From IMG/VR virus record IMGVR_UViG_3300013131_000249, positions 1-23,384 of that record: a stretch of DNA of 23,384 bases. One strand, given 5' to 3'. This document shows, piece by piece, positions 9,061 through 22,729 of the stretch. Every line of letters begins with the position of its first letter. The stretch's first letter is position 1. Source of the stretch: a virus. The notes under the pieces are model-generated. The model searched no databases. It was not told the origin of the DNA and saw nothing but the letters and a program-made list of their open reading frames with translations. The position numbers were made by a program, and so were the translations under genes.

Positions 9061-9062
9061 CT

Positions 9063-9069
9063 CTAAATA
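9063..9069 (+). promoter_or_regulatory. Putative late promoter box CTAAATA directly before a start codon
   Basis: The box follows the gene 23 terminator and ends 5 bases before the ATG at 9075. With the usual spacing of T4 late promoters, transcription would begin at or within a base or two of the ATG, giving an mRNA with no leader. It restarts transcription for the tube-paralog operon. Confidence 0.6.
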
Positions 9070-9074
9070 CTCAT

Positions 9075-9614
9075 ATGTCAAAAGACTACGGGATACCTCC
9101 ACAGGCAAACAATAGACTTACAGGACAACCTACACAAACAAACCTGACGAATGCCACAAATTTCAGGTTCATGTTGCCGAAGGTTCCAAATTCTGTGTAT
9201 TTTTGTCAATCCGTTTCTTTTCCCAACTTTTCCTGTCCACATATTGCCATACGAACAGGCAGAGGTGCTGCCCTGAAAGTTCCTGGCACCGAAGTAAGTC
9301 ATGGTGACCTAAGTATGACCTACATCGTCAATGAGGATATGAGTAATTACAGAGAAATGCAAGGATGGTTCACGAAAATGTCAGCATTTACTGACGGATT
9401 CAATGGACTTCTCAGTACCCGCGATTGGATGAGTGAACAAGGTCAATTGATGATACTTACAAATCGAAAAACACCAGTGGTCAGAATAACATTCAGCGGA
9501 CTATTCCCTACAAATCTATCCGCGATAGAATTTGACAATACAGATACAGAGGGTAAGGTCACGGTGGCAACTGCAACTTTAGGCTTCACATATTACACGA
9601 TGGAGGCCATATGA
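9075..9614 (+). CDS. Tail-tube-fold virion protein, first of a tandem pair (gp19/gp54-like)
   Basis: A 179-residue protein with the layout of the T4 tube family: 'NFRFMLPKVPNSVYFCQSVSF', 'ALKVPGTEVSHGDLSMTYIVNEDMSNY' over the middle strands, and 'PVVRITFSGLFPTNLSAIEF' near the C-terminus. It is paralogous to the next gene (shared 'KDYG(I/L)P', 'NEDMSNY/NSDLSNY', 'GLFPTNLS/GIFPTELS'). The start at 9075 is preferred because 'MSKDYGIP' matches the start of that paralog. An upstream in-frame ATG at 9012 would begin in front of the terminator hairpin and encode it. No ribosome site precedes 9075, and the late box ends only 5 bases upstream. Probable role: a tube initiator, baseplate-proximal or minor tube protein; T4 gp54 has this fold. 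Exact assignment is uncertain. Confidence 0.75.
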   Translation: MSKDYGIPPQANNRLTGQPTQTNLTNATNFRFMLPKVPNSVYFCQSVSFPNFSCPHIAIRTGRGAALKVPGTEVSHGDLSMTYIVNEDMSNYREMQGWFTKMSAFTDGFNGLLSTRDWMSEQGQLMILTNRKTPVVRITFSGLFPTNLSAIEFDNTDTEGKVTVATATLGFTYYTMEAI

Positions 9615-11712: not shown

Positions 11713-11743
11713 CAGACAGCCTCTAAATAAGAGGCATTGTCTG
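11713..11743 (+). promoter_or_regulatory. Inverted repeat with embedded late promoter box at the uvsW start
   Basis: Two 6-base arms on each side (11713-11718 with 11738-11743, and 11719-11724 with 11730-11735, with a 2-base bulge) fold around the loop AAATA. The late box CTAAATA (11723-11729) spans the inner arm and loop. The TTG start codon of uvsW (11737) is in the outer right arm. In read-through RNA from uvsY the hairpin could act as a weak terminator or hide the uvsW start. RNA initiated at the late box would lack the left arms. Confidence 0.6.
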
Positions 11744-13239
11744 TTATTAGGGTACATTATCACAACTCTGTTCATGTTCGCGTTTCTTGCGAGGCAGGTA
11801 TCGCCCGTGAAATTCAAGAGTTTTTCACATTCGATGTTCCTGGTGCGCGGTTTATGCCATCTTACCGCAACAAAATGTGGGATGGCAAAATGCGATTATT
11901 CACACCATTCAATCCTCTGCTATACACAGGACTCCTTGATCACTTGGCAGAGTTTGCAAGCGGTAGAGAATATACACTTGAAGTTTCTTCTGAGTTGGTA
12001 GACAAAGGAGACAAATTATCAAAGGATGAGTTGTTATCCTTTATGTCATCTCTGTCTCTGACCGCAGCAGGCAAGGCAATAACACCTCATGATCATCAGT
12101 TAGATGCTATTTTGAGAGCGATCAATAGAGATAGATGTCTTTTGCTATCTCCTACGGCAAGCGGCAAAAGCCTTGTCATCTATTCTCTCATTCGATACTG
12201 GCTAGAATCAATACAGCCACATCGAAAGATTCTTGTGATCGTTCCTACGATCTCTCTTGTATCTCAGATGATATCAGATTTCAAAGAATATAGCCATGCA
12301 AATGGATGGAATGTCGATGAAAATGTACATGGTATATTCGGAGGCGAAGAGAAAATCACAGACTGTAGAGTGATTGTATCAACATGGCAATCGATTTATA
12401 AACTACCCAAGGGGTATTTTGATCAGTTTGAGGCAGTCATAGGCGACGAGGCTCATCTGTTCAAGGCACAGAGTCTATCAGGGATCATGGGAAAATTAGT
12501 AGATTGTCCATATCGTATTGCATTGACGGGAACTCTTGATGGTACAAAAACTCACAAACTAGTGATCGAAGGTCTATTTGGTCCCACACTGAGAGTTACA
12601 ACCACCAAGGACCTCATAGAGAAAAATCTACTGTCCACATTAGAAATCGATTGTCTTCTATTGACCTATCCCGAACAAGATTGCAAACTGATGAAGGGAA
12701 TGGAATACAAAGACGAGATCGATTGGTTGGTCACTGATCCTAGACGAAACGCTTTGATCACAAAGGTAGCATCGTCCGTAAAAGGAAATACGCTCGTATT
12801 GTTTCAATTCGTAGAAAAGCATGGTAAACCTCTGTACGAAATGATCAAGAAAAGCACAGACAGAACCGTGTTCTATGTCAGCGGAGAAACAGAGGCAGAG
12901 ATAAGAGAAGAGATTAGAACTATCACAGAGAAAGAGGACAATGCGATAATAGTAGCCTCTTTCGGTACATTCAGTACGGGCATCAATATACGAAGCCTAA
13001 AGAACATCATATTTGCATCTCCAAGTAAGAGCAGAATTCGTGTACTTCAAAGTATTGGTAGACAACTAAGAAAGTCAGACCGCAAGGACAAAGCAAGACT
13101 TTATGACTTCGCAGATGATCTACACTGGAAGAGTAGCAAGAATCACACGCTGAAACACTTCATCGAAAGAGTGCGTATATACTCAGAGGAACAGTTTCCG
13201 TATCGCATGATAAAACTCCCCATAAAGGATTCAAGATGA
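11737..13239 (+). CDS. uvsW: UvsW-like RNA-DNA/branched DNA helicase
   Basis: Superfamily 2 helicase that unwinds R-loops and branched DNA, switching T4 from origin-dependent to recombination-dependent replication. Length is 500 residues, close to T4 UvsW. Motif I 'SPTASGKS' has Lys144; motif II is 'DEAH' at 237-240; motif III-like 'ALTGTLDG' follows; 'QSIGRQLRKSDRK' is motif VI. The N-terminal domain also matches T4: 'VHYHNSVHVRVSCE' against 'VHFHDFSHVRIDCE', and 'MWDGKMRL'. The frame offers no ATG at the start. TTG at 11737 is the best fit to the T4 N-terminus, with AGAGG only 2 bases upstream; ATT at 11746 is the alternative. A late promoter at this spot agrees with late expression of uvsW in T4. 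Confidence 0.93.
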   Translation: MSVIRVHYHNSVHVRVSCEAGIAREIQEFFTFDVPGARFMPSYRNKMWDGKMRLFTPFNPLLYTGLLDHLAEFASGREYTLEVSSELVDKGDKLSKDELLSFMSSLSLTAAGKAITPHDHQLDAILRAINRDRCLLLSPTASGKSLVIYSLIRYWLESIQPHRKILVIVPTISLVSQMISDFKEYSHANGWNVDENVHGIFGGEEKITDCRVIVSTWQSIYKLPKGYFDQFEAVIGDEAHLFKAQSLSGIMGKLVDCPYRIALTGTLDGTKTHKLVIEGLFGPTLRVTTTKDLIEKNLLSTLEIDCLLLTYPEQDCKLMKGMEYKDEIDWLVTDPRRNALITKVASSVKGNTLVLFQFVEKHGKPLYEMIKKSTDRTVFYVSGETEAEIREEIRTITEKEDNAIIVASFGTFSTGINIRSLKNIIFASPSKSRIRVLQSIGRQLRKSDRKDKARLYDFADDLHWKSSKNHTLKHFIERVRIYSEEQFPYRMIKLPIKDSR

Positions 13240-13697
13240 AACCACTAGGTCATATGATGATAAAACTGACAACAGGTGAATTGGTAGTAGCCAGTGTTAC
13301 CGTGTTGGCAAACGACTATCTACTTGAAAATCCGATGGCAGTGATGTTCATCCCTCAAACTAATAAAAAGGGAGAGATCATCAATACGAACATTCTATTC
13401 AATCAGTGGATAGAGTTCTCAGTTGATACTCATCTAAAAATACCCAAGAGCAGTGTGATTACGATTGCCACACCAGACAGTCAAATGGTTCAGGACTATC
13501 TACTATCGGTAAAGAATCAGGAAATCCAATGGATGCAGACTGAATTCAATACTCTGTTTGATAGTCTGGAAGCACAGGAAATACTGCAAAACGATCAGAA
13601 TCCTAATGACAAAGAAGTCGATATGGAGTATAATGATCCAAATCAACTTCCCTTAGATGAACCTGATGAATCAGAGGATACAGAAGACACTAATTAA
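13236..13697 (+). CDS. Small Sm/SH3-like phage protein with acidic tail
   Basis: The ATG overlaps the uvsW stop (ATGA), indicating coupling. Residues 1-95 follow a pattern shared with the 106-residue protein at 20707: 'IKLTTGELVVASV', then '(E/D)NP', a 'P...G.I' stretch, and 'I...TPDSQMVQDYL'. I recognise this small beta-barrel-like type from T4-like marine phages, where it is usually of unknown function. The last 40 residues are strongly acidic ('DPNQLPLDEPDESEDTEDTN'), which is absent from the paralog and could mimic nucleic acid or bind a basic partner. No catalytic motif is visible. Confidence 0.6.
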   Translation: MKPLGHMMIKLTTGELVVASVTVLANDYLLENPMAVMFIPQTNKKGEIINTNILFNQWIEFSVDTHLKIPKSSVITIATPDSQMVQDYLLSVKNQEIQWMQTEFNTLFDSLEAQEILQNDQNPNDKEVDMEYNDPNQLPLDEPDESEDTEDTN

Positions 13698-13772
13698 TAA
13701 GTAACTTCTGAAACCGAACACTGCTATTTAGACTCACCTACGCGAGGTACCCTTCAACAAAATTGCCAGATT

Positions 13773-14339
13773 TTGGCAGAAAGTCGAGATTTCGTGAGTA
13801 GTCATTATATTGACAACAAGACATTTCTGAAGGAAATTATTGCCTACAAGAAAACAGTACGGTCTGCAAAATCTAAAAACCTACCCAAGCCAGGTGTCAG
13901 TAACTACATCGGACAGTGCTTTCTTGATATTGCAAACAATTTAGCAAAGAAACCAAATTTTGCAAATTACCCATTCAAGGAAGAGATGATCGGAGACGGG
14001 ATTGAAAACTGCATTCAATATACCGATAACTTCGATCCTAAAAAGTCATCAAATCCATTCGCTTTCTTCACGCAGATTATTTACTACGCATTTATCCGTC
14101 GTATACAGAAGGAGAAGAAGCAACTGTATGTGAAAATGCGTTGTTTTGAAGAGAACGACCCAACAGGTAGATTTAGAAATTGGCTGAAGGACTCGTTTGA
14201 GGAGACAGAAAACCCCTTCCAAGAAATTCTTGCTCTTGAAGAGAAAAATGCAGCGACCCCGACCCCCAAAGCAACTAAAAAGAAGGGCAAGAAACCAAAT
14301 ACAGAGGCTCTAGATGTCTTCATGGAGGACAAGTCTTGA
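13773..14339 (+). CDS. 55: Late-transcription sigma factor (gp55-like)
   Basis: Sigma-family subunit that directs host RNA polymerase to late promoters with a TATAAATA-like box. Similarity to T4 gp55 (185 residues): 'HYIDNKTFLKEIIAYKK' against 'NYVNNKELLQAIIDWK', 'KEEMIGDGIENCIQYTDNFD' against '[20 protein letters not shown]', 'NPFAFFTQIIYYAFIRRIQKEKK' in pieces against '[23 protein letters not shown]'. Length is up to 188 residues. The C-terminal tail is Lys-rich and ends 'EALDVFMEDKS', which may correspond to the T4 clamp-binding tail 'SLDFLYE'. No ATG is available. TTG at 13773 or GTG at 13794 must serve as start, and neither has a good ribosome site. TTG lies in a 5-base inverted repeat (13764-13768 with 13774-13778). 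Confidence 0.92.
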   Translation: MAESRDFVSSHYIDNKTFLKEIIAYKKTVRSAKSKNLPKPGVSNYIGQCFLDIANNLAKKPNFANYPFKEEMIGDGIENCIQYTDNFDPKKSSNPFAFFTQIIYYAFIRRIQKEKKQLYVKMRCFEENDPTGRFRNWLKDSFEETENPFQEILALEEKNAATPTPKATKKKGKKPNTEALDVFMEDKS

Positions 14340-15376
14340 AGATTGCAATCGTAGCAGATACACATTTTGGGGCTAGGAATGATTCGCCCGTGTTTCTGCA
14401 CCATTTCTGTAAGTTCTTTGATGATGTCTTTTTCCCGACATTAGACGAACGAGGAATTACTCAGGTCATTCACTTGGGTGACCTCATGGACAGAAGGAAG
14501 TTTGTAAATTTCGGAACTTTGAATGCCACCCGAAAGCATTTTGTTGAACCTCTTCTAAACAGAGGCATAGTTCCTTACATCATTTTGGGAAACCATGATG
14601 TGTATTTTCGAAACACTAACTCTGTAAATTGTGTTAGGGAATTGTTCGATACAGAGATGAATCTGATCGATGTTCCACGGGTTGTTAATTTTGACGGGTT
14701 GCCGATTGCTATGTTGCCTTGGATCAACAAAGAAAACGAGGCAGATTCCCTTAATTTTGTGAATACCTGTAAATCACCTATCTTGATGGGACATCTTGAA
14801 CTAATGGGGTACGAGGTTTTACGAGGTGTTGAATCCCACGAAGGCATGGATTCGGCCCCATTCAGTCGCTTTGAGGCTGTTTATAGCGGACACTACCACT
14901 GTAAGCATACCAAGGGAAATATCCATTACCTAGGAACTCCATATCAGATTACTTTTGGTGATCTTTATGAACCGAAGGGATTTCATATCCTCGACACTCA
15001 AACAAGGGAAATTGAGTATGTAAGAAACCCACTAAGCATGTTCAACTGTATTGAGTATGATGATACCAAAAACGACTATTTTACTGAATTGCCTGAATTT
15101 GGTACATACGGCAACACCTTTGTTCGCGTGATTGTGAAGAACAAAAACAATCCTCTCATGTTCGACCGATTCATCGATAAACTAAACGAATCTAAGGTTT
15201 ATGGGGTGAATCTGTTACAGGACAAGGATCTTGGCATTCAGGGAGGCGAAGAAATTGATGCATCCAAAGACACTCTAAGTCTAATCAACCTTGAGATAGA
15301 CAACCTGAAGATTGAGAATCCTGTAAAACTCAAGCAAATCCTAAGAGATTTGTACAATGAGGCTCTTTTTAGTTGA
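14336..15376 (+). CDS. 47: Recombination nuclease subunit gp47 (Mre11/SbcD-like)
   Basis: Metallophosphoesterase subunit of the gp46/gp47 complex that resects DNA ends for recombination-dependent replication. Metal-binding motifs are visible: Asp8 and His10 in 'IVADTHFG', Asp49 in 'HLGDLMDRRK', Asn86-His87 in 'LGNHDVY', His153 in 'MGHLEL', and His186/His188 in 'SGHYHCK'. Length 346 matches T4 gp47 (339). The start is TTG at 14336: it overlaps the gene 55 stop (TTGA), GGAGG lies at 14324-14328 with ideal spacing, and the protein then begins 'MKIAIVADTHFG' like T4 'MKILNLGDWHLG'. Tight coupling to 55 and separation from 46 are notable. Confidence 0.95.
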   Translation: MKIAIVADTHFGARNDSPVFLHHFCKFFDDVFFPTLDERGITQVIHLGDLMDRRKFVNFGTLNATRKHFVEPLLNRGIVPYIILGNHDVYFRNTNSVNCVRELFDTEMNLIDVPRVVNFDGLPIAMLPWINKENEADSLNFVNTCKSPILMGHLELMGYEVLRGVESHEGMDSAPFSRFEAVYSGHYHCKHTKGNIHYLGTPYQITFGDLYEPKGFHILDTQTREIEYVRNPLSMFNCIEYDDTKNDYFTELPEFGTYGNTFVRVIVKNKNNPLMFDRFIDKLNESKVYGVNLLQDKDLGIQGGEEIDASKDTLSLINLEIDNLKIENPVKLKQILRDLYNEALFS

Positions 15377-15380
15377 TCTT

Positions 15381-15387
15381 CTAAATA
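15381..15387 (+). promoter_or_regulatory. Putative late promoter box CTAAATA before the giant gene
   Basis: The box lies 4 bases after the gene 47 stop and 30 bases before the next ATG. It marks the giant gene as a separate late transcription unit. Its last three bases form the beginning of the left arm of the start-codon hairpin at 15385-15419. Confidence 0.65.
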
Positions 15388-15419
15388 CCCGTATCACCAC
15401 ACATCGGAGGCACGGGTAT
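15385..15419 (+). promoter_or_regulatory. Start-codon hairpin overlapping the late promoter
   Basis: ATACCCGT (15385-15392) pairs perfectly with ACGGGTAT (15412-15419), an 8-base stem. The GGAGG ribosome site (15406-15410) is in the 19-base loop and the first two bases of the ATG (15418-15420) are in the stem. RNA reading through from gene 47 would carry both arms. RNA starting from the CTAAATA box, expected around 15393, would lack the left arm and be free for translation. T4 genes such as e and soc use this arrangement to block translation of early transcripts. Confidence 0.6.
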
Positions 15420-18400
15420 GACCATTTATGGGTTTGATCAAGGATATTACTTCTACGCTAAAAAGACAAGTGATGCTGATTTTACAGTAGGAGAGATCCT
15501 AGACCTACAGAACGCAGACGATAGTCGCGCAAATGCCAATCTGATGTACTGGTACCTAACAGCCATAGAGGATATCGAAGGCTCAAATGTAAAGAAGTAC
15601 AAGATTTACCCTATACGCAAGAGTGGAGACAATACTGGAAACTATGTGATGTATCCTGATTTCCGTTTGCTTTCCTCCATGTTTCTTGTTGGATTAGCAA
15701 GTGGAGCAAAGGCGCAATTGAGAGGTCCTTACCTAGGAGGAAGGATTCTCACGGATACAGAAGCGTCGGGTAATCTTATCGTCACAATAGGAGAATCTGA
15801 CTACGAACCCACTCGCCATGATTTGTTCACATATCAAGATGATACTAAGGTGTTTGTCACAACACAGGGAGATCCGTTCAATGCTAACTTCATGAGCGAT
15901 ACTCCTTTCTCCGCAGAAACTTTGAACTACTCTTGTGTACCGATTCTAGACCGACAAGAATTGGCTGTCCCTTATGTCGGAGTTTTTACGGAAAAAAATA
16001 GATGCGGTGGTGCTTTGCTTACACCATGGCATGTGGTGACTGCAAATCACTACCCTATAAACGCAGTTGAAACACAACTTACTTTTTATAATCAAGCAAG
16101 TGATACTAGAATAACGAAAGGTATTTCTGGATCTTTGCCTGTTTCTTGGTATGACATATATGCAAACCTAGGAATAACTTGGCTAAAGAATAATGCAGGA
16201 GCAACCAATGAAGAAAAATATCTCTGGACGCATCAAACGCTAACGACTTACTATAGTCAGAATTACGGAAGCGACATAGCCAATAGATTTCTTGAGGGAC
16301 TAAATGACCTTCGCGTATTGCTATTGAACTCTGCCGTGTCTTTGGCAGTAAAACCTGCCAAGTTGCCTAAGTTTACAGATGACATTTATTCCAAATTGGG
16401 TTATGGAATAATAATCGACCAAAATCAAAGAGGGTATCTCACACCTCTCAAAGACAATGTTGCAAATCAATCGGTGAGACCCACAGGCGGTTCTTCTGTT
16501 CTTTCGCAATATGCATCCCAATCTACCCTTCCGAATGGAACAAGATATGGAGATATATTCAGAAACATAGTGAGTGGCGATTCATCATCTCTCGTATTGT
16601 CATCTTATGCAGGAGAGACGATATTTTTAGGAACAATCAATGGTGCTAGTAGCGTTTTAGAACCTCAGATCAATGTTGTTGACGGTTTACCGACAACAGA
16701 TGTTCCTCTAGGAAAGTCAAATCCTGCGGGATCTACCTACGAGAATGGTTGTAAACTCTGGATGTACCTAGGTATTGAAATTCCTGTAACAGTGTTATCC
16801 GATGAGTTCCCTAATCCATGGTATCAAAATCAAGATCTAGTCGATAACCCTGCATCTTACCCACCGTTTATACTTGATCTGTACAATCAACCATATCTAA
16901 CAGATTTCCCTGATGTTCTTCGCAATCCATTTGCGATGATTCAAACTTACATCAATAATTGGTCAAGATCACAAATAGCAGAATACCCATCAACTGATGT
17001 TGAATTTGATGTGATTGATATTGTTGATGATTGTCCTTGGTTTCCGTGTCCTGATTGGAAATACTACTATCGAACTAGTGTAAATCAATCGGTTGTCGCT
17101 GCTGATTTGTTTCAATATGACAGAGCGCCAAGAGAAAGGGTAAATCTAGGTACAAGACGGTCTCCTATCACTACTACAAGAATATTTGATTACTCAACTA
17201 ATCCTGGTTCTCAGAGAGCATCGACAAGAGTAAGTCCTTACTACGCTCTTGTCAGAATCAATGACGAAGATGCTACTGGATTTTGGAATGGTTGGGGGGA
17301 CAAAGAAGTTGCTCTTTACAGAGGAAATCCTGCAACAGGTACTCGCGCATACGCATGGGAGAGTAATCCTGCTGTTCCTAGTAGATCAAGTCCGTGGCAC
17401 AATATCATATATGAACACACCATTGGTCTGTATTCTTGGGGTTTCCGTTCGTTCATGCTTCATCTACCTTATAGTTCTTTGAGCATAGGATCTGCACTCA
17501 CCTATGAAAACATGGTGAATGAATACGATGGAGATTATTACGGAAGTCCTTATTATGCAGATTATCATTCAACTTCAGATCTAACTCCTCAAATAACGAT
17601 GGGGGTAAACTATCCATCAAGATGGAAGGGGTTTTTCGAATCACTTGAGGCTCTTGCTTTAGGACAAATGTATCCTGAAGGCAAAGAACCGATTTCAGAA
17701 CCGACCAGCGTAATGATTTATTTGCCATCTCTTGTTGCACCAAACACAACAGCAAGAACATCATCTCAATCTGATTATGAACGATTGGGTGAGACAGAAT
17801 GGCTGAGAAGAATAGATTCTCTTGCTAATCGGTTTATCAATCTGCATAACAAGGTAAAAGATAGATCTAGATTTGCGGTTGCTTTCGATAGCGTATCCAA
17901 CAGCCATACTCCAAATACATCAAGTGATGTGTTTGAACTTGGAGATTGGAGATTACTCAATACTTTGAAACAAGCAGGTGTAAATGTATATGTTACTCCG
18001 AGACCAAATGCTAACAGCGAATGGGCTGATTTTGATTTATGGAGCGATGAATACGATTTGTTTGTTGATGCTGCAACAGAGGGCAAATCTACAGATAAGA
18101 GTCTGAATAATGTGATGCGTGGAGCGGTAAGAAGATTCCCAATACCTAGCAATCTCGATCCGTATGGAACCCTATCAACTGTAAAAGGCTCACCATTATC
18201 ATCAACAGAAAATCAAAGAAATACTCCACACTATGCATTGTTTTCGCTATACGCTCTTTCTGATCACTACAGAGAAGACAATAGATGGGAAGGTTACAAG
18301 TTCATAAGGCCAAGTGAAATCATGGTAGATCCTGTGATATTCACTGACGCACCTCTAGTCTCCATAGACTCAAATGGAAAGTATCTCAGAATACCAGCAC

Positions 18401-20673
18401 AGGCTTTTCATTCAAGAACCGCATACGATGAAGCCAGGATAGAAAATGCATACTGTGAAGGTAGAGGTCAAACCATATCTGGTTATAGTGCAGGTTATTG
18501 GTTCCCCGACACAATCACAGAGTGGGATGTGGGAGTTAGAAGAAGTAGTATTTCGGAATTTGTAGACATGATAGAAAATTTCACCGATTCGGCTGGACCG
18601 ATAAACACTTCAAGTCAAAACCAATATCCTAATGATACTTTATCTACCAAGATCATTCCTTCCGTACTAAAAGAGCCTTTCCGTCCTGACCTGTATACAG
18701 TCGTGACTATTCCTGCTCTGGGCGATTTAAATAACGATAACACTATTGATGCCAGGGATCTCGCAATAGTCCTGCAAAACTTTGCTTCGATGACTGCATC
18801 CGGTGATGTTAACGGTAGTGGCTATGTAGATGCAGCGGATTTGTCTATTATTCTTAGCAATTGGGGACAAACTGAAGAACAAGTGACAACCTGTACGGCA
18901 CAAGTTATAAGTGACCCTGTTCATGATCCAAGTAAGTCTGCGAATTATGAAATATTTGGTGTGATTCATAAAGCCGGAACACAACCTAATGATATTCCAT
19001 TTGATGTAGAATCTATCGTTTCTACTGTATTTCCTGGACTTGCTGCAAATGGTGACACTTCTTCATCTTATAATCGTGCGGGAATAACAGCAGGTCTAAG
19101 CGAAGATAGAATGAATGCATTTGCAGAAGAACTTCTGAAAATACCTTCTGGTAGAAGAGTCATAGATCCTCGATATTGGGGTTGGGGTACTATGTCGTTA
19201 GGATTAAGAGAATATGAGGATTATTACAAAAATACCACTGACAAAATTACATATTCTCAAAATGATTCAAGTTGCGTCCCGCCCGATACATCGGATCCAA
19301 ATACAGCCGACTTTGTAGGTCCCTGGCAAGAAAACAATGCTAATGATACTGAGCAATCGTGGAGAAATTTCTTAATTCAATGTTCAAATTCTGGATTAAC
19401 ATTTGACTATATTTCAGATGATGTTGGTATTATGGAAAATGGTGATGGGTTGTTGATGAATACTATAACCAATATCTTTACTGCTTTTTACGGACCTCAA
19501 TTTGATCCCGTTACAGGTGACCCTATTGTACATCCATGGATGTCGAAACCAGATGCAAGGAGATTTGCAGCGATAGTTAGAGATTCAAGATTTACAAGTC
19601 AAACAAACACATATAACGGCAGAACATTTGCTGATAATCTAGTTTACAAGTATAAACAATCAGTTCAGTCTGATGATCCTCAGATTACTCATCTAACCTT
19701 AATGAGTCCTTTTATTTGTCCTCAAAATTATGTGGATTTTGTTAATATTGATTATGTTACCTTAGATTTAGAACAATCTTGGGATGGTTGTGTTAGAGAC
19801 ATATTTGTCGGTGAGAGAGAGAACAAATACAGAAAAGTACTTGAAGAGTTTCCCGATCATGTACATACAAAATACGCCTCTTATCAGTTTTATCCATCTC
19901 AGTTCGAAGATGCTAGATTTGTATTGAACAACAATGGAAAAACAAGATTGATACCTTGGCCTTCAACATGGACCATGTCGCCAGTATGCTACGCAGAACC
20001 AACAGATTATTTCTCAGAGAATTTCGGAATTAAAACAAGTGCAACCACAGAAGAAGAAAGAAAAACTTGGTTTCATAGAAACTCTGTGTCACCAAATGAC
20101 TTATTCATACCTTCTAGGCAATGGATAGGATTTTTGCAGGATATAGCCCGTGTAAGAATGTGTGCAAAAAACACACCAAACGGAAGTAATGTAGAATTGG
20201 CACCATGGATCATACCACCAGGAGGATTTCTTGCATGGGCGCTCGGTGAAGGTCCTGCTCAGTATATAAAAGAGCACATGTTTCATATATGTTTACATGG
20301 AACTCTGTATTTTAATGTGTGGGCTAATACGGGATATGGACATAGATTGAAATATGTTGACTCTGTTTTGAAGGAGTGGAAAACTATCTCAGGTAATTCA
20401 AGATGTCAGCCTGAAGACAGAAAGTTGGTCGATTTGGTAACTGCATGTACAAAGACACTTATTAGTGGCGGAAAACTGATGAGTGGAGTGAACTCAGGAT
20501 TATATCTGTGGAGAATAACTATACCTCCACATCTATTCAATGAAAATCAATCAACAAATCTTATTCCTAGTAGCGAATTAGGTAGTCGCGGACCTCTTGT
20601 TGTACCACAAGGTGAAGTAGGTTTGTGGATTCTGGATGCTATAAGCACTCCCCCTCAATATGAAGTAGGATAA
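15418..20673 (+). CDS. Giant secreted-enzyme-like protein: trypsin-like protease domain plus dockerin/EF-hand doublet
   Basis: A 1751-residue protein, by far the longest in the window, with GGAGG before its ATG and its own late promoter. No named phage family is recognised. Residues 173-410 carry the signs of a chymotrypsin-fold serine protease: 'CGGALLTPWHVVTANHY' (His211), 'GLNDLRVLLL' (Asp297) and 'SGDSSSLV' followed by 'GETIFLGTING' (Ser389). Residues 1103-1150 hold two Ca2+-type loops (D-x-N-x-D-x-x-x-D-x-x-D) typical of a dockerin. Between and after them are large aromatic-rich regions, for example 'RFAVAFDSVSN', 'LLNTLKQAGVNVYVTPRP' and 'LTFDYISDDVG'. These might be alpha/beta-barrel enzyme domains, but that is a guess. 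No coiled coil or fibre repeat is visible and there is no signal peptide. Arginine is mostly AGA and the second half is AT-rich, unlike gene 23. A virion-attached host-surface enzyme is the simplest idea. Confidence 0.8.
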   Translation: MTIYGFDQGYYFYAKKTSDADFTVGEILDLQNADDSRANANLMYWYLTAIEDIEGSNVKKYKIYPIRKSGDNTGNYVMYPDFRLLSSMFLVGLASGAKAQLRGPYLGGRILTDTEASGNLIVTIGESDYEPTRHDLFTYQDDTKVFVTTQGDPFNANFMSDTPFSAETLNYSCVPILDRQELAVPYVGVFTEKNRCGGALLTPWHVVTANHYPINAVETQLTFYNQASDTRITKGISGSLPVSWYDIYANLGITWLKNNAGATNEEKYLWTHQTLTTYYSQNYGSDIANRFLEGLNDLRVLLLNSAVSLAVKPAKLPKFTDDIYSKLGYGIIIDQNQRGYLTPLKDNVANQSVRPTGGSSVLSQYASQSTLPNGTRYGDIFRNIVSGDSSSLVLSSYAGETIFLGTINGASSVLEPQINVVDGLPTTDVPLGKSNPAGSTYENGCKLWMYLGIEIPVTVLSDEFPNPWYQNQDLVDNPASYPPFILDLYNQPYLTDFPDVLRNPFAMIQTYINNWSRSQIAEYPSTDVEFDVIDIVDDCPWFPCPDWKYYYRTSVNQSVVAADLFQYDRAPRERVNLGTRRSPITTTRIFDYSTNPGSQRASTRVSPYYALVRINDEDATGFWNGWGDKEVALYRGNPATGTRAYAWESNPAVPSRSSPWHNIIYEHTIGLYSWGFRSFMLHLPYSSLSIGSALTYENMVNEYDGDYYGSPYYADYHSTSDLTPQITMGVNYPSRWKGFFESLEALALGQMYPEGKEPISEPTSVMIYLPSLVAPNTTARTSSQSDYERLGETEWLRRIDSLANRFINLHNKVKDRSRFAVAFDSVSNSHTPNTSSDVFELGDWRLLNTLKQAGVNVYVTPRPNANSEWADFDLWSDEYDLFVDAATEGKSTDKSLNNVMRGAVRRFPIPSNLDPYGTLSTVKGSPLSSTENQRNTPHYALFSLYALSDHYREDNRWEGYKFIRPSEIMVDPVIFTDAPLVSIDSNGKYLRIPAQAFHSRTAYDEARIENAYCEGRGQTISGYSAGYWFPDTITEWDVGVRRSSISEFVDMIENFTDSAGPINTSSQNQYPNDTLSTKIIPSVLKEPFRPDLYTVVTIPALGDLNNDNTIDARDLAIVLQNFASMTASGDVNGSGYVDAADLSIILSNWGQTEEQVTTCTAQVISDPVHDPSKSANYEIFGVIHKAGTQPNDIPFDVESIVSTVFPGLAANGDTSSSYNRAGITAGLSEDRMNAFAEELLKIPSGRRVIDPRYWGWGTMSLGLREYEDYYKNTTDKITYSQNDSSCVPPDTSDPNTADFVGPWQENNANDTEQSWRNFLIQCSNSGLTFDYISDDVGIMENGDGLLMNTITNIFTAFYGPQFDPVTGDPIVHPWMSKPDARRFAAIVRDSRFTSQTNTYNGRTFADNLVYKYKQSVQSDDPQITHLTLMSPFICPQNYVDFVNIDYVTLDLEQSWDGCVRDIFVGERENKYRKVLEEFPDHVHTKYASYQFYPSQFEDARFVLNNNGKTRLIPWPSTWTMSPVCYAEPTDYFSENFGIKTSATTEEERKTWFHRNSVSPNDLFIPSRQWIGFLQDIARVRMCAKNTPNGSNVELAPWIIPPGGFLAWALGEGPAQYIKEHMFHICLHGTLYFNVWANTGYGHRLKYVDSVLKEWKTISGNSRCQPEDRKLVDLVTACTKTLISGGKLMSGVNSGLYLWRITIPPHLFNENQSTNLIPSSELGSRGPLVVPQGEVGLWILDAISTPPQYEVG
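15934..16647 (+). other. Chymotrypsin-like serine protease domain in the giant protein
   Basis: Approximate domain limits (residues 173-410). The His-Asp-Ser order and spacing (His211, Asp297, Ser389) fit the trypsin family. The local motifs are variants: 'TANHY' for the usual 'TAAHC' and 'GDSSS' for 'GDSGG'. 'FLGTING' after the serine occupies the place of the usual 'LVGI.S' strand. Confidence 0.7.
18724..18867 (+). other. Dockerin-type doublet of Ca2+-binding loops in the giant protein
   Basis: First loop: Asp1103, Asn1105, Asp1107, Thr1109, Asp1111, Asp1114. Second loop: Asp1130, Asn1132, Ser1134, Tyr1136, Asp1138, Asp1141. Each is followed by a short aliphatic helix, the second ending 'ILSNWGQ'. 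The form 'GDVNGSGYVDAADLSIIL' is like the dockerin-like repeats that are very numerous in Planctomycetes. Confidence 0.85.
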
Positions 20674-20706: not shown

Positions 20707-21027
20707 ATGGATATCAAGATCGTAAGACTGTCTAGTGGCGAAGAAATCATCTGCAACTATAAAGAAGAAAATGAAGGGCTGATTGTAATCAATGACCCAG
20801 GAATTATTATTCCTGTTGGTCAAGGTGAGATTGGTATCATGCCTTGGCTTGCTTATGCAAAGACCAAAGATGGTATTGTTGTGGATAAGCGTTTTGTCGT
20901 ATTTGTCGTAGAGCCGCAAACTGATTTTGCAAATCAATACAAAACACAGTTTGTTCCTGCAATGTCAGGTCTAGTCACTCCACCGCAGAAGAAAGTTCTC
21001 ACCCCATCACTCAAACTAGCCGACTAA
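20707..21027 (+). CDS. Small Sm/SH3-like phage protein
   Basis: A 106-residue protein with GGAGG 5 bases before its ATG, 33 bases after the giant gene stop. 'VRLSSGEEIICNY', 'VINDPGIIIPV', 'GIMPWLAYAK', 'VVFVVEPQTDFANQY' and 'SGLVTPP' are hallmarks of a small beta-barrel-like protein common in T4-like marine phages. It is related to the N-terminal 95 residues of the protein at 13236 but lacks the acidic tail. Function is unknown. Its last 17 bases overlap the end of gene 46 on the other strand, so the two messages are complementary at their 3' ends. Confidence 0.65.
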   Translation: MDIKIVRLSSGEEIICNYKEENEGLIVINDPGIIIPVGQGEIGIMPWLAYAKTKDGIVVDKRFVVFVVEPQTDFANQYKTQFVPAMSGLVTPPQKKVLTPSLKLAD

Positions 21028-22729
21028 AATTGTTGCGTTTGACGAATGAGATCTGTCGTTCGAACTTACTTTCAAGTAGTTCCTTCGGCTTGTGACTGAT
21101 GACAAACACATTGATAGAGCGGTCGAATCCCTTGAGAATTTCTAGGAATGATTCGACCGCTGTGTCATCTAACGAACCATCTAGGATTTCATCCATGATC
21201 AGCAGATTAGTAGACACGGAGTTCTTCATCGATGCGATATTTCTCCATCCAAACAACAGCGCAAGATCAATTTTCTTCTTCTCTCCCTCGCTAAAAGATG
21301 TGTAAGTGAAGATATCACGGTGTCTAGACTTTATGGTTTCGTTGAATTCTTCGTCTAGAGTAAAATTCACAAACAAACTCATCTGTGACAGGTATCGATT
21401 GATGGTTCTGTTGATGATGGGGATGTAGTGCTTGATGATTCTTCCCTTGATCCCGCTGTCCTTTAGAAGATTGGCAGCAATACCATAGTAGTGCTGATCA
21501 TCAACCATCACTTCGCGCTCTCTTGCCATCTCGTCAGCGTCTTGTTTTAGTTTCTCTGTTTCCGCTTCTTCTTTAGCGTGAGATTCTTGTCTCTGTTTGG
21601 AAAGTTCGGACAGAATTTTTTCGTTTTTGTCAATAGACTTACGGATACCTTTTATTGATGCATCCTTTTCTACTGCGAATGTTTCTAGCGAACGAATGGA
21701 TTTCAAAACATCCGTTATTTCAATCATGCGAGTCTGTGCCATCTGAACGGATTGCTGTATCTCTTCAACTGCGGTGTTTACTTCTTCTAATTTTGACCTC
21801 TTGGTAGAGGTAACCTGATCCTTGAACAAAGAATCGATTTTCTGAGAGCAGGTTGGACACTTATCATTGTTTTCGTAGAACTCTATATCAGATCCTATGG
21901 ATTTGATTTTACCTTTCAACTGTCGAGTAATTGTATCCATGTCAATGATGCTCTTGGAGACATTGTCTTTGTCCGTAATTTGCTCCAAGAGAGCATCGAT
22001 CTTCAGTCTAATTTCTTCGACTTGCGTAGAAAGAATTTCAATATTGCTGTTTTCTTCTTTGATTTGCTCTGTGATTTCATTTTCTCTTTGTTTTGTATCC
22101 TTTGACTTGTTCTGAAGATACTTTTCGTGGAGAGCAATCTTTTGTTTGATGATAGCGAGTTGACCCTCTATGTCAGACAGGTCTTCCTTATTAGAGGCAA
22201 CCTTAGCCTTCAGTAGAGTATTCATTGTGCTGAAAATGTTGATGTCTAGGATAGCCTCTACGACCGATCTACGATCTGCTGCACTGAGACGCATGAAAGG
22301 TACATAATTGGCGGATCCAAGTATGACCACCTGACAAAATGCTTTGTAGGACATACGAAGCACAGTCTCCTCAAAGAGTTTCTGATAGTCCTTGTTTTTT
22401 GCCTCTTGGTCAATCAGTACACCATTTTTGAAAACTTCAAACAGGCGAGGAGCAAGTCCCCGTCTAACCTTATAGGTGTCATTTGCTATCTTGAATTCTA
22501 TTTCTACAAGACAGTCTTTTTCGTTTACAGTATTGACCAGTTGAGGAATATTGATGTTTCGGTAAGGTTTACCAAAAAGAACGAAGCAGATTGCATCCAA
22601 CATTGTGGACTTACCTGCTCCGTTTTCGCCCGATATGAGCGTTGTGTTAGCCTTGGTGAACTGAATCTCTGTCCAATACTGTCCTGTGCTTAGAAAATTC
22701 TTCCATCGGACTTTATCAAAAACGATCAT
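21011..22729 (-). CDS. 46: Recombination nuclease ATPase subunit gp46 (Rad50/SbcC-like)
   Basis: ATPase partner of gp47. Length 572 is close to T4 gp46 (560). Walker A is 'GENGAGKS' (34-41), and the Q-loop region is around 'FCQVVILGSANYVPF' (131-145). The zinc hook is 'CPTC' (291-294) between two coiled-coil arms of about 120 residues each. The ABC signature is 'FSEGEKKK' (479-486), Walker B 'NLLIMDE' (508-514), D-loop 'DGSLDD' and switch His in 'VISHKP'. All functional motifs are intact. GAGG lies before the ATG on the minus strand. In T4 the genes 46 and 47 are near neighbours on one strand; here 46 is inverted and separated from 47 by the giant gene. It is probably cotranscribed with the small membrane protein gene upstream. 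Confidence 0.96.
   Translation of the reverse strand: MIVFDKVRWKNFLSTGQYWTEIQFTKANTTLISGENGAGKSTMLDAICFVLFGKPYRNINIPQLVNTVNEKDCLVEIEFKIANDTYKVRRGLAPRLFEVFKNGVLIDQEAKNKDYQKLFEETVLRMSYKAFCQVVILGSANYVPFMRLSAADRRSVVEAILDINIFSTMNTLLKAKVASNKEDLSDIEGQLAIIKQKIALHEKYLQNKSKDTKQRENEITEQIKEENSNIEILSTQVEEIRLKIDALLEQITDKDNVSKSIIDMDTITRQLKGKIKSIGSDIEFYENNDKCPTCSQKIDSLFKDQVTSTKRSKLEEVNTAVEEIQQSVQMAQTRMIEITDVLKSIRSLETFAVEKDASIKGIRKSIDKNEKILSELSKQRQESHAKEEAETEKLKQDADEMAREREVMVDDQHYYGIAANLLKDSGIKGRIIKHYIPIINRTINRYLSQMSLFVNFTLDEEFNETIKSRHRDIFTYTSFSEGEKKKIDLALLFGWRNIASMKNSVSTNLLIMDEILDGSLDDTAVESFLEILKGFDRSINVFVISHKPKELLESKFERQISFVKRNNFSRLV

Follow-up and report, generated by a model that had tools for sequence, protein, structure and literature searches.

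Leader hairpins that confine translation to late transcripts have been described for the T4 genes e, soc and 49, for I-TevI to III and segB, and for mobE of phage Aeh1 (PMC3014915, PMC2988022). The hairpin of T4 e cuts lysozyme synthesis from long transcripts about 100-fold (PMC3014915), and I-TevI acts as an operator-binding repressor over its own late promoter (PMC2988022). A further late-promoter product of T4, UvsW, unwinds origin R-loops, and its late appearance contributes to the switch from origin-dependent to recombination-dependent replication (PMC3016281).

Here we analyse a 23,384-base fragment of a T4-like phage (hereafter, the window), in which the initial annotation had proposed a silencing hairpin at the start of a giant gene. 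The logic of such hairpins is already known from T4 (e, soc, 49, I-TevI), and the giant gene would at best be one more case. The hairpin at 15385-15419 is real, and support for a switch is moderate; we give a probability of a little over 40% to its being a functional T4-type late-only translation switch for the giant gene.

The window and its genes

The window encodes a tail sheath, tail tube, portal, head protease, scaffold, major capsid, UvsY, a UvsW-like helicase, gp55, gp47, an ORF of 1751 amino acids and gp46. The UvsW-like helicase (11737..13239, plus strand) was identified by PHROG phrog_16 (2.3e-100) and by tblastn to annotated uvsW genes. Downstream on the same strand, PHROGs agrees with the names 55 and 47 that had been given to the two genes preceding the giant ORF, that is, the late sigma factor gp55 (13773..14339, plus strand, 5.8e-58) and the SbcD-like gp47 (14336..15376, plus strand, 2.1e-95). 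The giant ORF (15418..20673, plus strand) carries a dockerin type I domain (Pfam, 2.7e-7) and is otherwise without assigned role: a trypsin-like match at residues 182-215 is weak and sub-threshold, and no known phage family was matched. Neither the DNA of the region joining gp47 and the giant gene nor, at the protein level, the giant protein had a match among cultured phages. The gp46 gene (21011-22729) lies on the minus strand, with the giant gene between it and gp47; many related contigs instead have an SbcC-like ORF immediately after gp47. Two listed ORF starts, 9012 and 6382, are probably wrong, with ATG 9075 favoured over the former by homologues and a late box, and ATG 6430 over the latter, in the scaffold gene, by a Shine-Dalgarno (SD) sequence.

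A hairpin at the start of the giant gene

The perfect 8-base stem noted at the start codon was recovered by folding (-13.9 kcal/mol), its left arm ATACCCGT (15385..15392, plus strand) pairing with the right arm ACGGGTAT (15412..15419, plus strand); of the AUG (15418-15420), the A and U alone lie inside it. Two further 2-bp steps, UC/GG and CC/GG, lengthen the stem and leave the SD sequence GGAGG (15406..15410, plus strand) mostly paired (4/5 bases). The left arm does begin, as had been reported, inside a late-promoter box, TCTAAATA (15380..15387, plus strand), which is a variant of T4 TATAAATA. The C at -12 is found in 35 of the 49 late boxes of relatives, and late boxes of Aeh1 show a similar variant (PMC2988020). 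Since T4 late boxes begin at -13 (PMC2988020), with their last base at -6, late transcription is predicted to start at 15393 on the plus strand, the first base 3' of the left arm.

From sequence and computation, read-through RNA from the gp55-gp47 region would fold the strand of the promoter box onto the SD sequence and start codon, and RNA initiated 6 nt past the box would be without the left arm and keep the start region open. For this to act as a switch, the read-through RNA would be made early, the box would be an active gp55 promoter, and the hairpin would lower early synthesis of the giant protein. Several features fit a T4-type arrangement: the box is directly upstream in a phage that encodes gp55 (promoter activity being predicted), the left arm lies upstream of the predicted late start, and the SD sequence and the AU of the AUG are sequestered in the long RNA. 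No terminator-like site was found on the plus strand from 12,417 to 16,000. A sigma-70-like site at 13606 (11/12, also in L006) was rejected as evidence of an early promoter because it sits within a conserved coding peptide, YNDPNQLP.

The strength of the effect was taken as the cost of opening the start region (-15 to +3) in RNA with upstream sequence compared with RNA from the predicted late start, and T4 late promoters carrying an exact TATAAATA box served for calibration. The top scorers in this set were I-TevII (+13.3 kcal/mol) and the two boxes of gene e (+12.7 and +12.4), a ranking that agrees with the literature; soc was missed, perhaps because its RNA in fact starts at a different base from the one assumed. 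For the giant gene, opening costs 9.8 kcal/mol in read-through RNA versus 4.7 in late RNA, an effect of +5.1, under half of the T4 e value, and the start region is freed for any 5' end from 15391 onward. The idea that late RNA lacks the left arm and upstream RNA carries both arms fits the geometry and energetics with the predicted start at 15393, but the effect reaches only p 0.03-0.16 depending on the stretch shuffled (p 0.157, 0.037, 0.030, 0.063, 0.11 and 0.100 for upstream shuffles of 10, 15, 20, 30, 40 and 60 nt), compared with p below 0.01 for T4 e and I-TevII.

Chance complementarity, in which the late promoter and SD sequence would be genuine and used and the 8-bp match would have no role, is nearly as probable as a switch, and these p values count towards it. 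Fourteen of 200 dinucleotide shuffles of the 60-nt fold were as good (z -1.56). The hairpin was also picked by eye from about 20 gene starts in the window, where a closed start is unexceptional: 17% of random 18-nt sites reach the same degree of closure, which two other listed starts exceed. On the other hand, a stem of such length at this exact place is found in 0.2-3% of shuffles (0.2-0.5% for 8 Watson-Crick pairs joining the segment from box to start site with that of the SD sequence and AUG; 1.8-3.3% once G-U pairs are allowed), and the stem covers the SD sequence and AUG and stops at the predicted start site. Among 49 late-promoter leaders from environmental T4-like loci, that of the window ranks 8th (p 0.033). 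As many as 18% of these leaders reach p<=0.05 versus 5% expected, in loci that are related to each other, which suggests that start closing may be a fairly frequent arrangement among these phages. In L137, L141, L032 and L006, several late boxes directly follow TCTCC or a similar sequence complementary to the SD; such bases before late boxes would give weak start-closing hairpins in read-through RNA.

A different role for the same stem would be translational coupling, in which ribosomes ending gp47 melt it and allow the giant gene to be translated on read-through RNA, so that the giant gene is tied to gp47 and not silenced. The gp47 stop codon (15374-15376) ends 9 nt upstream of the left arm, which begins at 15385. 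An arm at this distance past a stop codon should be within reach of a terminating ribosome. However, the 3 nt that separate the gp47 stop from the late box are equal to the gap in T4 gene e, where the hairpin is still about 100-fold repressive (PMC3014915), and we regard coupling as improbable. Finally, an inverted repeat serving as a DNA site or a protein-binding RNA site, such as an operator over the late promoter as for I-TevI (PMC2988022), would explain its overlap with the promoter box but is very improbable, as the giant protein has no sign of a DNA-binding autorepressor and the 19-nt spacer would be unusual for a dimeric operator.

The giant-gene leader in relatives

Orthologues of the giant gene were found in L006 and in two near-identical contigs, L001 and L002 (the same contigs as L085/L086 and L291/L292), with none further in scans of viral contigs and genomes. 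The leader is unchanged in L001 and L002, which are too close to the window to inform. Between the window and L086 (the same contig as L002, 95% identical) there are zero substitutions from 15284 to 15460, whereas the flanks differ; this pattern fits constraint or recombination, the hairpin being inseparable in it from the promoter and SD sequence.

The only diverged relative, L006, has a gp47 that is 72% identical to that of the window, the same gene order, a late box directly after gp47, a retained SD sequence and a giant protein related to that of the window, with 27-32% identity at the N terminus. Its leader, CTAAATATCAAGAACTAGGGAGACACGCTCATG, forms no stem between the box strand and the start, and its score for start-region opening does not rise above chance (p 0.80-0.93). 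On sequence comparison, this leader is replaced and not point-mutated, so that the hairpin is absent in the relative and there is no broken stem. An alternative L006 fold (z -2.9), in which the end of gp47 pairs around codon 7, was rejected as an equivalent, its start-region effect being no higher than in shuffles by the same test. A pattern scan of viral contigs with TAAATACCC-N-GGGTATG was also set aside, as its matches (at least 120) came mainly from unrelated phages and were dominated by chance. None of the compensatory changes for which relatives had been suggested as a check is present among these leaders, two being identical to that of the window and the third having the box without the hairpin.

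The absence of a box-to-start stem in L006, together with its score, makes the giant-gene hairpin at most lineage-specific, and lineage-specific is how it appears from these leaders; the same absence counts in favour of chance complementarity. Pairing kept in a diverged orthologue, which L006 does not show, supports membership of the T4 type without strictly defining it, several T4-like phages being devoid of the e hairpin. With the pairing absent from the sole diverged relative and the p values given above, membership of the T4 type is not established. The view that the window reproduces T4 e and soc logic in independent sequence thus holds for the layout and for the stop-to-box spacing, which are as in e, but not for the effect, which is far weaker and absent in L006.

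A start-codon hairpin at uvsW

Start-closing logic is better supported at uvsW than at the giant gene. The uvsW hairpin of the window, CAGACA-GCCTCT-AAATA-AGAGGC-AT-TGTCTG (11713..11743, plus strand), encloses the TTG start codon (11737-11739, plus strand) on its 3' side, and a late box TCTAAATA (11722-11729, plus strand) runs from its left arm into the loop. The hairpin is kept in L006 (490-519) as CAGAC-CCCCTA-CATA-TAGGGG-TTAT-GTCTG around an ATG: all six inner pairs form in both phages, and four of the six are changed on both sides and hence compensatory. L006 has no exact late box at uvsW, which indicates that retention of the hairpin does not depend on the promoter box.

We surveyed 134 uvsW starts in environmental T4-like loci, 60 of which (28 distinct) have TAAATA 5-11 nt upstream. 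Half of the distinct leaders (14/28, with 1.4 expected) form a better hairpin than with the left arm shuffled (p<=0.05), the loci being related and the events not independent. A pair count in fixed register over seven short uvsW leaders gave 73% of cells paired versus 17-51% when slid, but letter shuffles were as good in 83 of 500 cases; the count does not exceed letter shuffles because the stem register shifts between phages, and per-sequence shuffles were used instead for this reason. No such box was present at the annotated uvsW start of nine cultured relatives (Melnitz-3, syn9, S-PM2, DLP6, C48C1, P-SSM4, SmaM_Ps15, phiM9, S-SCSM2R). In CC31 a late box lies further upstream of uvsW, with a normal leader, and in T4 a late box lies ahead of segE. 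Given that T4 UvsW is late and unwinds R-loops, its silencing in uvsY read-through RNA would make sense where uvsY and uvsW share a strand.

Late boxes close to start codons

At 26 of the 28 distinct box-bearing uvsW starts, TAAATA lies 5-8 nt from the start codon. The same holds for the window gene at 9075 (MSKDYGIP..., tail-tube-like): in its start region (9061..9077, plus strand), the late box has TAAATA at 9064-9069, which leaves 5 nt to the ATG. Across all loci, TAAATA is never 3 or 4 nt from the ATG of an ORF; 14 cases are at 5, 8 at 6, 8 at 7 and 2 at 8, followed by a broad spread. There are 32 cases at 5-8 nt, whereas the hexamers AATAAT, TTAAAA and AAATTA, taken as controls, give 2, 7 and 8; ATAAAT, also tried as a control, overlaps the box and is not clean. 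In the 28 loci, these boxes belong to 32 of 192 ORFs examined. Of the 32, 27 are uvsW, and at least three of the remaining five are similar to the tail-tube-like gene at 9075.

With T4 spacing, a distance of 5 places the first RNA base on the A of the AUG, and any shorter distance loses the start codon, so that leaderless late mRNAs are predicted. This prediction covers uvsW and the 9075 gene, with promoter activity, start sites and translation all putative. No description of leaderless late mRNAs in T4-like phages was found in the open-access literature. More broadly, we see about even odds that in this environmental T4-like group the boxes 5-8 nt before the starts of uvsW and the tail-tube-like gene produce late mRNAs that start on the start codon or no more than 3 nt away from it, that for roughly half of the uvsW genes the box sits inside or beside the loop of a start-closing hairpin in uvsY read-through RNA, so that the R-loop helicase would be made late only, and that the giant-gene hairpin is the ordinary, leader-bearing version of this arrangement.

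Discussion

Should the giant-gene hairpin be a switch, early silencing of the T4 kind would extend to a 1751-residue gene of unassigned role in uncultured phages. Of wider interest is the uvsW element, in which a hairpin and a leaderless late start would together form a compact timing device where uvsY and uvsW are on one strand, and which makes a sharp prediction for RNA 5' ends.

A comparable structure is a hairpin at 6880-6945 of L130, an uncultured T4-like phage. As in the window, the late box is in the left arm, the SD sequence and AUG are in the right arm, and gp47 is in the neighbourhood; unlike the window hairpin, it has 18 bp, z -5.6 and an effect of +16.9 kcal/mol, and is far stronger. 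It precedes a gene between gp47 and gp46, a layout known for T4 homing endonucleases; the gene product is HNH-like by eye, and Pfam gave no HNH match.

With T4 gene e the window shares an upstream stop codon followed after 3 nt by a late box that continues ...AAATACC, a left arm in and after the box, a right arm at the SD sequence and AUG, and a late RNA without the left arm (PMC3014915). The two differ in gene and sequence, which are unrelated, in the size of the effect (+12.7 kcal/mol in T4 e versus +5.1 in the window), in the number of late promoters, of which T4 e has two, and in the right arm, which in T4 is located before the AUG. The T4 e hairpin was demonstrated by experiment, whereas that of the window is known from its sequence, which together with the identity of the genes also distinguishes it from T4 soc, 49, I-TevI/II/III and Aeh1 mobE. 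What the window is predicted to share with all of these is a late gene placed within an early or middle transcription unit, whose start region is closed in the long RNA only (PMC3014915, PMC2988022).
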